A DNA stretch of 55,113 nucleotides from Acidimicrobiales bacterium (lineage in GTDB: Bacteria > Actinomycetota > Acidimicrobiia > Acidimicrobiales > Iamiaceae): positions 137,938 through 193,050 of the forward strand of contig JAUJNP010000003.1 of assembly GCA_030448105.1 (NCBI GenBank). Direction: 5' to 3'. A program made the position numbers and the translations under genes. The notes below the pieces were generated by a model. That model was not told the origin of the DNA. It was given only the letters and a program-made list of their open reading frames with translations, and did not search any database. This document shows positions 3,638 through 11,171 of this stretch, one piece after another; position 1 is the stretch's first letter, and the number at the start of each line of letters is the position of its first letter.

Positions 3638-3663
3638 GCGCGACGAGCCGCATCAGCTGAACC

Positions 3664-3961
3664 GTGGCCCACCAGGTGCTCGACCGCCCGATCTTGTTCT
3701 ACGACGACCTCTGACGGTACTAACGGCACCAAGCGGCCCTGGTCAGGGCCGGTTACGACGACGAGCCGCTCTCTCGAGTTGATGGCCCTCTCGCCGGCGA
3801 CCCCCTGGCAGGCCCGGGCGGCTCGGCTGTGGCCGCCCCTGCGCCGCCAGATCTACCTGGAGTACCGACGGCTGGCCGACCGCCGGGAGGAGCTGTCGGG
3901 CCGGCTGCCGGATACGCCCCCGACCGTCGTCGGCCCCGGGTGGGTGCGGCTGCCGGCCTAG
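3664..3961 (+). pseudogene. Degenerate copy of the DCC-family (DUF393) oxidoreductase at 9388
   Basis: The GTG at 3664 opens VAHQVLDRPILFYDDL, identical in protein to the copy at 9388. It is then interrupted by TGA (3712-3714) and TAA (3721-3723) at the two positions of the family CxxC. The hairpin GGCCCTGGTCAGGGCC after the second stop is preserved. About 127 bp of the central coding region is missing relative to the other copy, shifting the frame. The C-terminal part continues from about 3779 as ALSPATPWQARAA through RRLADRREELSGRLPD to a TAG at 3961. The TATCAT box found before the other copy is CATCAG here. This copy therefore looks inactive, and it preserves the first TGA of the shared ancestor. 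Confidence 0.8.
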
Positions 3962-8585: not shown

Positions 8586-9325
8586 TCCTCCTCCTGGCCG
8601 CGCTGGTGGCAGGCACGCTGGCGGTCACCGCGCCGGCGGCGGCCATCATCAACGGCACGGCCGACGGCAACCGCCATCCCAACGTGGGTGGCCTTTTGTC
8701 GCCCACCCAGTACTCCGACGGCACCTGGATCTACTGCTCCGGCACGCTGATCTCGCCGACCGTGTTCCTGACCGCAGCCCACTGCGCCGGGGACGGGCGC
8801 GTGGGCGTCACCTTCGACACCGCCTACGAGGCCGGCGACAAGGTGTACTACGGCACCTTCCGGTCCGACCCCCTCTACAGCCAGCGGCAGAACGACCCGC
8901 ACGACATCGCTGTCGTGGTGTTCGACAAGGCGATCAAGGGCATCACCCCGGCCCGGCTGCCCGAGGCCGCTTCGCTCTCGAACCTCTCCAAGACGCAGAA
9001 GTTCACATCCGTCGGCTACGGCGCCTACGAGGTGACGAACTCGCCCGGCGGTCACCGGTACCTCTACAACGACGTGCGCATGTTCGGCGTCGGCACGCTG
9101 AACGCCACCAACCGGTCCTGGCTCCGGATCTCGATGAACCCCGCCACCGGCAACGCCGGCACCTGCTACGGCGATTCGGGCGGACCGAACTTCCTCGGCA
9201 CCACCAACATCGTGGCCGCCATCACGATCACGGGCGACGCCGTCTGCCGCGCGACCAACGTCACCTACCGCCTCGACACAGAGTCGGCGAGAACCTTCCT
9301 GGCGCAGTACGTCACCGTGCCCTGA
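8582..9325 (+). CDS. Secreted trypsin-like serine protease, start codon missing
   Basis: From 8582 the frame gives R-LLLLAALVAGTLAVTAPAAA, a Sec signal peptide with a cleavage site after AAA, then the mature start IINGTADGN. The chymotrypsin triad is visible: His in LTAAHC, Asp in HDIAVVVF and Ser in CYGDSGGP. The rest matches S1 proteases to the stop at 9325. The hydrophobic core of the signal peptide begins exactly where MFS sequence ends on the other strand, and no credible ATG/GTG with ribosome binding site precedes it. An internal GTG at 8606 would delete half the signal peptide. The family is certain; the gene's 5' end is not. Confidence 0.85.
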   Translation, partial: RLLLLAALVAGTLAVTAPAAAIINGTADGNRHPNVGGLLSPTQYSDGTWIYCSGTLISPTVFLTAAHCAGDGRVGVTFDTAYEAGDKVYYGTFRSDPLYSQRQNDPHDIAVVVFDKAIKGITPARLPEAASLSNLSKTQKFTSVGYGAYEVTNSPGGHRYLYNDVRMFGVGTLNATNRSWLRISMNPATGNAGTCYGDSGGPNFLGTTNIVAAITITGDAVCRATNVTYRLDTESARTFLAQYVTVP

Positions 9326-9374
9326 CCCCGGTGGAACCCCCTGGAGCGGAGATGGGGCCGCGTACTACGAGCCT

Positions 9375-9380
9375 TATCAT
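9375..9380 (+). promoter_or_regulatory. Candidate -10 box TATCAT for a leaderless transcript
   Basis: TATCAT lies 7 bases before the GTG at 9388. This is the spacing expected if transcription begins at the first base of the start codon, a common arrangement in actinobacteria. No Shine-Dalgarno sequence precedes the GTG. No clear -35 box is visible. The degenerate copy at 3664 has CATCAG at the same place. Confidence 0.5.
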
Positions 9381-9387
9381 CTGAACC

Positions 9388-9840
9388 GTGGCCCACCAGG
9401 TGCTCGACCGCCCGATCCTGTTCTACGACGACCTCTGACGGTACTGACGGCACCAAGCGGCCCTGGTCAGGGCCCGTTACGAAGGCAAGCCGCTCTCCAT
9501 CCTGCCGTTCTCCGACCCGCTGTTCGAGGTGCTGCTGGCGTCGGTGCCCGAGGCGGAGCGGCGGGCCAGCATGCACGTGGTTCGCCCCGACGGCTCGGTG
9601 GCCAGCGCCGGAGCCGGGGTGATCGAGCTGTTGGCCCTCTCGGCTCGCACCCGCTGGGTGGCCTGGGCGGCGCGGCGGTTGCCGCCGTTGCGTCGCAGGA
9701 TCGAGCGGGAGTACCGCCGGGTTGCCGATAGACGGGGCGAGCTGTCGGCTCGCGTGCCGGATGCGCCGCCCACGGTCGTCCGGCCGGGTTGGGTCCATCT
9801 GCCGGGTCACGGCGGAGGAGACGCTCCTGTAACCTCCTGA
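9388..9840 (+). CDS. Candidate selenoprotein: DCC-family (DUF393) thiol-disulfide oxidoreductase with UxxU motif
   Basis: The frame from GTG 9388 to TGA 9838-9840 encodes 150 residues if two internal TGA codons (9436-9438 and 9445-9447, residues 17 and 20) are read through. Before them is RPILFYDDL; between them Arg-Tyr; after them RHQAALVRARYEGKPLSI, then SMHVVRPDGSVASAGAGV and REYRRVADRRGELSARVPD. This is the standard DCC layout, whose signature is Y-D-x-x-C-x-x-C, and both TGA codons fall exactly on the two cysteines. No other stop interrupts the frame. A SECIS-like hairpin follows at 9459-9474. An in-frame TGA at 9382 sets the upstream limit, so GTG 9388 is the first possible start. Family members are predicted redox proteins of uncertain substrate. 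Alternative: a pseudogene with two coincident nonsense changes, which I think much less likely. It lies 22 bp upstream of an antitoxin gene. Confidence 0.72.
9459..9474 (+). promoter_or_regulatory. SECIS-like hairpin inside the DCC gene
   Basis: GGCCCTGGTCAGGGCC forms a perfect 6-bp stem with a GGTC loop. The loop begins 17 nt after the second in-frame TGA and 26 nt after the first, within the range for bacterial SECIS elements. The E. coli fdhF element, from memory, also presents GGUC in its loop about 18 nt after UGA. A SelB homologue would bind it in the mRNA. The same 16 bases occur in the degenerate copy at 3735-3750. Confidence 0.6.
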
Positions 9841-9858
9841 CAGGAGCGATTAGGAGGT
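9823..9858 (+). repeat. Interleaved inverted repeats covering the antitoxin ribosome binding site
   Basis: Two inverted repeats interleave in order A-B-A'-B'. GCTCCTG (9823-9829) pairs with CAGGAGC (9841-9847), and ACCTCCT (9832-9838) pairs with AGGAGGT (9852-9858). The last element is the Shine-Dalgarno sequence of the antitoxin gene, and the DCC stop codon lies between. The two stems could exclude each other or form a pseudoknot in RNA, or the block could be a DNA operator for the antitoxin. Confidence 0.45.
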
Positions 9859-9862
9859 CACC

Positions 9863-10450
9863 ATGGCGATGCCACTGCACGACGTGCTCGAGCGCAGGTT
9901 CGGCGTCGACGAGGAGGAGTTCGCCGCCGCCCTGGTCGAGTTCGCCGATCGAGCTGGTCCCCTCGCGGTGACCGACATCCGTCCCGCCGACTACTTCGCC
10001 GACGCCCAGCAGGCCACGTTGGCCAAGCTGGGCGCCTCGCTCCGGCCGTTGCGGCCCAACGACCTCGGCCCCGTCGCCGGTCTGGCCGCGGCCCACGCCG
10101 AGCTGGTGAAGCACTCCGTCAGCGTTGCCATCGTGGCCAAGCGCTTGGGCGTCGACCCCAGCCGGGTACGGCAGCGCATCTATGCCCGCTCGCTCTACGC
10201 CTTCAAGCCGCGTGGTGCCTGGCTGGTTCCGGCCTTCCAGCTCGCCCGCCGCAAGCTGGTGCCCGGCCTCGACCGTGTGGTCGCCGAACTGTCGCCGATG
10301 CTCCATCCCGTGGCCGTCAGCCGATGGTTCACCACCCCGAACGTGGACCTGGTCCTCGGTGACCAGGCCGTCTCGCCCATGCAATGGCTGTCGTCGGGCG
10401 GTCCGCCCGACCTGGTGGCGTCGTTGGCAGGCAACATCGATCAGCGTTAG
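9863..10450 (+). CDS. Antitoxin of the MbcA/ParS/Xre-RES type
   Basis: The 195-residue protein has a central helix-turn-helix-like segment, VAIVAKRLGVDPSRVRQRIY. Its C-terminus, ending WFTTPNVDLVLGDQAVSPMQ then WLSSGGPPDLVASLAG, matches the toxin-binding domain of antitoxins paired with RES toxins (W...P...L.G..SP..WL..GG). The ATG at 9863 follows AGGAGG at 5 bases. It is followed 103 bp later by a RES toxin gene, the usual order. It should neutralise the toxin and repress the operon, possibly through the repeats at 9823-9858. Confidence 0.85.
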   Translation: MAMPLHDVLERRFGVDEEEFAAALVEFADRAGPLAVTDIRPADYFADAQQATLAKLGASLRPLRPNDLGPVAGLAAAHAELVKHSVSVAIVAKRLGVDPSRVRQRIYARSLYAFKPRGAWLVPAFQLARRKLVPGLDRVVAELSPMLHPVAVSRWFTTPNVDLVLGDQAVSPMQWLSSGGPPDLVASLAGNIDQR

Positions 10451-10553
10451 GAGCCGAGCCGATAGGCGAGGCGACCCACCCAGCACGGCGCCTGTTGCGG
10501 CGCAGCCGCACCGCTTGCCCGGACAACGGCTCGACCTTTCCGCGACGTCCTTA

Positions 10554-11171
10554 GTGCCCAAGTTCCCATGGCCGCCGGCAGCCGACGAGCTCGGGCGGCT
10601 CCCAGCCACGCACCACACGCTGCGGGCCGGCACGCCGATCGCCCGCATCTACGCACGGGGCGGGCGGCATCCGACGACGTGGCGCGCCCTCCGCTTCGAC
10701 GGCCCGTTCGCCGGCGCCCGCTTCGACCACCACGTCAGCGGTGACCGCCGGGGGGTCATGTACGCCGCCCGCCACCTGATCACCTGCGTGGCCGAGGTGT
10801 TCCAGGACTCCCGCGTCGTCGATCGCTTCGCTGACGACCGGTTCCTCGCGGCGTTCCGCCTCACGAGATCGGTGCGGCTGCTCGATCTGACCGGTGACTG
10901 GCCGACGCGCGCCGGCGCCAGCCAGGCCATCTCATCCGGCCATCGTCCGAAGGCGCAGGCGTGGGCGCGGGCGATCTACGAGGCGTACCCCAAAGTGGAA
11001 GGGCTCTGGTACCCGTCGTCGATGCACGGCGGGCACCCTGCCCTCGTCCTGTTCGAGCGTGCCGAAGGCGCCCTCGCCACCGGCACCGACCTCGACGTCC
11101 CACTGTCGCACCCGGGCCTGCTCCCCGATCTCGTCCGCGCCGCCGGTTCCCTCGGCTACCTCCTCCGCTGA
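10554..11171 (+). CDS. RES domain toxin (NAD+-degrading family)
   Basis: The 205-residue protein has the RES layout: RAGTPIARIYARGGRHPTTW, then RFDGPFAGARFDHH, then MYAARHLITCVAEVFQDS, and a C-terminal region ending HPGLLPDLVRAAGSLGYLLR. RES toxins such as MbcT phosphorolyse or hydrolyse NAD+ and are held by the upstream antitoxin. The GTG at 10554 gives the family's usual length. The open frame extends upstream through the antitoxin in another frame without family resemblance. The ribosome binding site is weak, which would favour antitoxin over toxin. Only the family and partner are inferred; the activity is not visible. Confidence 0.85.
   Translation: MPKFPWPPAADELGRLPATHHTLRAGTPIARIYARGGRHPTTWRALRFDGPFAGARFDHHVSGDRRGVMYAARHLITCVAEVFQDSRVVDRFADDRFLAAFRLTRSVRLLDLTGDWPTRAGASQAISSGHRPKAQAWARAIYEAYPKVEGLWYPSSMHGGHPALVLFERAEGALATGTDLDVPLSHPGLLPDLVRAAGSLGYLLR

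Follow-up and report, generated by a model that had tools for sequence, protein, structure and literature searches.

DCC1-like proteins (PF04134; DUF393/YuxK-type) adopt a thioredoxin-like fold in which the redox motif lies where helix 1 begins. Selenoproteins carrying two selenocysteines (Sec, U) as Sec-x-x-Sec (UxxU) are described in other families: Table 1 of PMC13188914 has a Prx-like thiol:disulfide oxidoreductase (PF00578), a mercuric-reductase-like metal-binding protein (NF041115) and an FmdB-type protein (TIGR02605), and a Prx-like one appears in PMC2398784. The motif is rare, with these three entries in a table of 119 selenoprotein families. That table, dated 2026, holds no entry under DCC, PF04134, DUF393 or YuxK, and the accessible parts of PMC2398784, PMC9312934 and PMC1794560 name no DCC selenoprotein. 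A search of the open-licence PMC literature returned no report of a DCC selenoprotein or of a two-UGA bacterial SECIS arrangement. The suggestion that a UxxU DCC protein was undescribed thus agrees with what is in print there, the motif itself being known from other selenoproteins.

The window analyzed here is a 55,113-nucleotide stretch of an Acidimicrobiales genome. At positions 9388–9840 of its forward strand lies the gene DCC-U (150 codons, start GTG, stop TGA), which encodes a thiol-disulfide oxidoreductase of the DCC1-like family, its motif predicted to be Sec-x-x-Sec. The start codon at 9388 was assigned by alignment with the relatives P0003–P0005. The product begins VAHQVLDRPILFYDDL-U-RY-U-RHQAALVRA..., and the frame ends with TGA at 9838–9840. 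Before that end, in-frame TGA occurs solely at codon 17 (9436–9438, forward strand) and codon 20 (9445–9447, forward strand), exactly the two interruptions the original prediction had named. Both are predicted Sec codons, at the first and second redox-Cys sites, respectively: P0003, P0004, P0005 and P0016 have an aligned Cys at each, and both sites are also Cys columns in a comparison with 65 Cys genes. For two random stops in 150 codons, the chance of hitting exactly codons 17 and 20 is 1 in 11,175. This value, and the recurrence of the same placement in other genomes, bear out the argument that chance would hardly put both stops on redox cysteines. Family membership was also borne out; when Cys was substituted at both TGA codons, the translation scored 42.8 bits against PF04134 (Pfam DCC1-like), above the gathering cut-off of 27.8. 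The CxxC by which PF04134 is recognized is absent as such from DCC-U, where TGA codons encode both redox positions, making it a Sec variant.

G+C content by codon position in the DCC-U frame is 0.76/0.55/0.85. This composition is coding-like and similar to that of the neighbors at 8606–9325 (0.56/0.53/0.94) and 9863–10450 (0.74/0.47/0.88). Two opposite-strand ORFs overlapping DCC-U (9467–10648 and 9265–9810) were considered and rejected, neither having a Pfam match; the composition of the latter (0.81/0.55/0.75) would by itself be compatible with coding. TGA serves as the terminal stop of both DCC-U and the trypsin gene (9323–9325), which rules out general TGA recoding in the window, as had been argued. 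A sequence search of solved structures with the DCC protein gave no credible relative, the best match (E 0.0045) being to uteroglobin fusions. Immediately downstream (9863–11171), a gene that weakly matches Rv2175c-like wHTH is accompanied by a RES-domain gene; the two may form an antitoxin-toxin pair.

The source genome (3.29 Mb in 49 contigs, 94% complete, 3.7% contaminated) contains the Sec machinery that the prediction implied. Genes selA, selB and selD scored above their family cut-offs, selB narrowly (246.8 versus 242.25 bits), and two tRNA-Sec genes with anticodon tca were identified by ARAGORN and Rfam (L001 1497–1592 on contig C31; L002 1497–1592 on contig C19). Among 75 genomes, two tRNA-Sec matches of at least 60 bits were found in the source genome and G091 alone, and both have a UxxU gene. 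The two tRNA-Sec genes of G091 (L234 708–808, L235 637–732; anticodon tca) likewise differ from each other. The intact selA-selB pair of the source genome resides on a 7.2 kb contig (C41). An apparent second selA-selB locus on C19 was discarded as the same stretch with many small indels (L210 315–4717 versus L211 1–4360; 98.0% identity over 4,411 columns, 59 gap positions, 28 mismatches); given this identity, it is taken as an assembly duplicate of C41. Since the C19 copy is broken by these indels, frameshifts in this assembly need care. The source genome also has an ordinary CxxC DCC1-like domain (YDEQCELC; L209 1501–1863, contig C30) within a longer open frame.

The protein search with the DCC-U product returned 28 relatives. 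Four (P0003, P0004, P0005 and P0016) are full length with CxxC at both sites and are up to 66% identical; the other 24 are short (83–116 residues). All 16 short relatives inspected start past residue 20, the remaining eight being known by length only. Such starts are as expected where gene callers stop at TGA, and they suggest that the genes of the short proteins carry TGA. None of seven TGA proteins scored above NCBIfam cut-offs, with one weak TrbB/TraF match (E 0.015).

Genome searches for DCC relatives, reading through stop codons, yielded 19 TGA-bearing DCC genes including DCC-U: 15 UxxU (one a fragment), four UxxC and no CxxU. The 18 further genomes with such genes belong to the same phylum, 14 of them having a two-TGA gene (one a broken fragment) and four a one-TGA gene. 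Across the 96 codons scanned in each of the 19 genes, the only further in-frame stop was a TAG in the G062 fragment. Relatives carry either Cys-x-x-Cys or TGA at exactly these two positions, an outcome in favor of the original prediction, and the decay that would have spoken against it was seen solely in the G062 fragment and in another copy of the gene within the window (3643–3956).

Within the order of the source genome, 18 of 298 genomes matched the DCC-U protein and 33 of 397 matched the alignment; a whole gene with two TGA codons was found in the source genome, G036 and G091, while G062 has two TGA codons in a fragment ending in TAG. Phylum-wide, 48 of 396 genomes matched, with UxxU, besides DCC-U, in G679 and G761, and UxxC in G709 and G474. 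Every copy detected in the order of G709 has TGA: the gene occurs in 12 of 39 genomes (10 UxxU, two UxxC, no CxxC). Only G474 itself has the gene among the 24 genomes of its class. In the order of G679, 11 of 138 genomes matched, with TGA confined to G679 and G831, the latter UxxC. Single TGA codons in G626, G592 and G209 were set aside, being sited at the C-terminal end of genes that are themselves CxxC.

Searching 84,980 species with the pattern FYDxxUxxUR..A produced 102 stretches, of which three are DCC genes (L064, L140 and L144); because this pattern requires FYD, variants like FDG escape it, and the source genome's own records may be missing from the set searched. Inspection by eye ruled out DCC for the remaining 99 (for L047, Pfam did so too), many being out-of-frame Acinetobacter matches. 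The motif LURYURH is also present in a separate record, JACCXE010000009.1 (L144). For gene neighborhoods, the stretches around 14 TGA genes and DCC-U were taken; that of G036 had no ORF under the composition filter, and no conserved partner emerged from the comparison of 13 TGA genes with DCC-U. Neighbor matches were mostly between sister species, and the wider ones looked up belonged to large families: ABC transporter ATPases (G519, G474, G679) and AMP-binding enzymes (DCC-U, G460).

Sec machinery was surveyed in eight TGA-form and 67 Cys-only genomes; G831 and the other ten TGA genomes from the order of G709 lay outside this set. Above-cut-off selA was found in 6/8 TGA-form versus 39/67 Cys-only genomes, and tRNA-Sec of at least 60 bits in 7/8 versus 35/67. 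G062, whose DCC gene is a fragment, has neither selA nor tRNA-Sec, and G761 (60% complete) has no selA. The association between machinery and TGA form (p = 0.06; p = 0.015 without G062) is weak because many Cys-form genomes have tRNA-Sec and selA as well. In G474, about 2 kb separate the UxxC gene from a tRNA-Sec gene that shares its contig, and selA is some 15 kb off (L240 734–825, L194 1501–1878).

A tree of 87 DCC rows (14 UxxU, four UxxC and 69 CxxC, with G062 left out), built on few columns, required at least five label changes for UxxU and two for UxxC. DCC-U adjoins the CxxC proteins P0003–P0005 with starred support. Sec and Cys forms are intermixed, which places Sec in distant parts of the family and points to exchange between the two forms, to which the tree assigns no direction.

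The second copy of DCC-U in the window (3643–3956, forward strand) is decayed. It retains the first TGA (3712–3714) and the hairpin (3735–3750), has TAA at the second site (3721–3723) and lacks 125 bases. Identity to the DCC-U gene is 93% over the first 131 bases of this copy and 75% over the last 183; given this contrast, the two copies may have exchanged their front part. The copy sits behind a WS/DGAT gene.

A candidate SECIS hairpin, GGCCCUGGUCAGGGCC, occupies positions 9459–9474 of the forward strand, with a 6 bp stem and the loop GGUC, 17 nt past the second TGA and 26 nt past the first. The bacterial SECIS rules stated in the accessible part of PMC13188914 comprise a loop of 3–9 nt, a stem of 4–16 bp, a G within the first two nucleotides of the loop, a distance of 16–37 nt from the UGA and an energy of −7.5 kcal/mol or lower. 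With a loop of 4 nt opening on G, a 6 bp stem, distances of 17 and 26 nt and an energy of −10.1, the DCC-U hairpin falls within these rules for both UGAs. SECIS-like hairpins were likewise found downstream of the TGA sites in related genes. Under the full rules as given there, 15 of 18 TGA genes passed at the first UGA and 11 of 15 at the second; in the same loose search, 20/55 and 18/55 Cys genes passed at the first and second site, respectively. The hairpins of G036 and G558 were too weak, G748 had no such hairpin, and G618 passed at the first UGA only, with another hairpin. In 11 of 15 UxxU genes, a single hairpin at or below −7.5 kcal/mol suits both UGAs.

The two forms were also compared at a fixed place (loop 25–27 nt past site 1), which was chosen after the first four genes had been seen, those four being among the 18 counted. 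There, a G-loop hairpin of −5.5 kcal/mol or lower was present in 16/18 TGA versus 6/65 Cys genes, and one of −7.5 kcal/mol or lower in 13/18 versus 4/65. The mean energy of the 24-nt stretch was −10.3 in TGA genes versus −5.0 in Cys genes. Compared with synonymous recoding, this stretch had z < 0 in all 18 TGA genes (mean −1.35 versus −0.14 in 55 Cys genes); taken singly, five of the 18 beat recoding at the 5% level, and DCC-U (p = 0.11) was not among them. Longer DCC-U stretches folded no better than shuffles (z = −0.27 and −0.37). In order mates, the GGUC loop is kept and the stems have changed yet remain paired. G036, with 36% GC, retains CTG GTC AGG against its own codon usage (chance ~5 × 10−4). 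In the single-UGA genes G474 and G831, the hairpin lies at 22 and 21 nt; that of G831 (loop GGUCU, −7.5) was folded alone, outside the hairpin statistics.

Taken together, DCC-U is likely translated as a Sec-x-x-Sec selenoprotein, with one downstream SECIS hairpin probably directing the decoding of first one UGA and then the other, a reading to which we assign a probability of roughly 0.92 on genomic evidence. Sec at both TGA sites, as originally proposed, is supported by the machinery, by homologs with TGA or Cys there and by the SECIS-like hairpin. SelB, bound to the hairpin at 9459–9474, would deliver Sec-tRNA-Sec at UGA 17 and then, nine bases on, at UGA 20. The product is predicted to be a thioredoxin-like domain whose two Sec residues sit where the first helix begins, and to act as a thiol/disulfide oxidoreductase cycling between a diselenide and two selenols. 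That a single hairpin programs both insertions, SelB and Sec-tRNA-Sec being used twice and the 26/17 nt placement being a compromise that keeps both UGAs in range (in contrast to the 22 and 21 nt of the single-UGA genes G474 and G831), is a proposal we hold at slightly better than even odds.

The strongest competitor, itself improbable, is that Sec enters at one UGA only or that each UGA has its own RNA element, with the second UGA mostly terminating. Inserting Sec twice within nine bases should be inefficient, and the four UxxC genes have TGA at the first site alone. However, TGA is kept at both sites in 15 genes, the two UGAs are just six bases apart, and each lies within reach of the hairpin; in 11 of 15, a single hairpin at or below −7.5 kcal/mol serves the pair. 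DCC-U could also be a pseudogene, a former CxxC gene whose two Cys codons turned into stops, as the decay of the window copy (3643–3956) and of the G062 fragment and the closeness of Cys relatives on the tree might suggest. This is very unlikely, since the same two TGA codons recur in other genomes with no further stop, a whole gene never has TAA or TAG there, and the DCC-U frame keeps its coding composition and conserved hairpin.

The frame would stay open whatever residue TGA encodes, so a suppressor or changed code inserting Trp, Cys or another residue instead of Sec would fit in this respect. Against it, TGA terminates DCC-U and the trypsin gene, both in-frame TGA codons fall on Cys columns, and both tca tRNA genes found are tRNA-Sec by ARAGORN and Rfam; we give this reading very little credence. 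Least probable of all, to the point of being negligible, is a sequencing or assembly error at both codons. Over 4,411 columns, the overlapping selA-selB contigs do differ, with 59 gap positions and 28 mismatches, but those errors are mainly indels, and LURYURH also occurs in the separate record JACCXE010000009.1.

On a Sec-x-x-Sec reading of DCC-U, the selenoproteome of actinobacteria, most of them uncultured, would gain a family. Such genes would be shortened by gene callers that treat every TGA as a stop, which would explain truncated DCC proteins in databases. With two UGAs and one candidate SECIS in a short gene, double Sec insertion is directly testable; if one SECIS does serve both, these genes would offer a small, naturally occurring model of how two Sec residues are built into a diselenide redox enzyme.

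Compared with known systems, DCC-U belongs with the DCC1-like/DUF393/YuxK-type proteins (PF04134) over the whole domain: its redox motif occupies the same position, and its closest CxxC relative is 66% identical. It differs from them in encoding both redox cysteines by TGA, followed by a SECIS-like hairpin. With the UxxU selenoproteins of PMC13188914 it would share Sec-x-x-Sec and two Sec per protein; the entries tabulated there belong to other families, none of them PF04134. The UxxC thioredoxin-fold selenoproteins of that source (thioredoxin, glutaredoxin, DsbA-like) resemble it in the predicted location of Sec, where the first helix begins, and in the four UxxC DCC genes Sec would occupy the first site, just as in those proteins. 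In our reading, the DCC selenoproteins would constitute a new selenoprotein family built on an already known UxxU motif, with one SECIS for two UGAs possibly a new arrangement.
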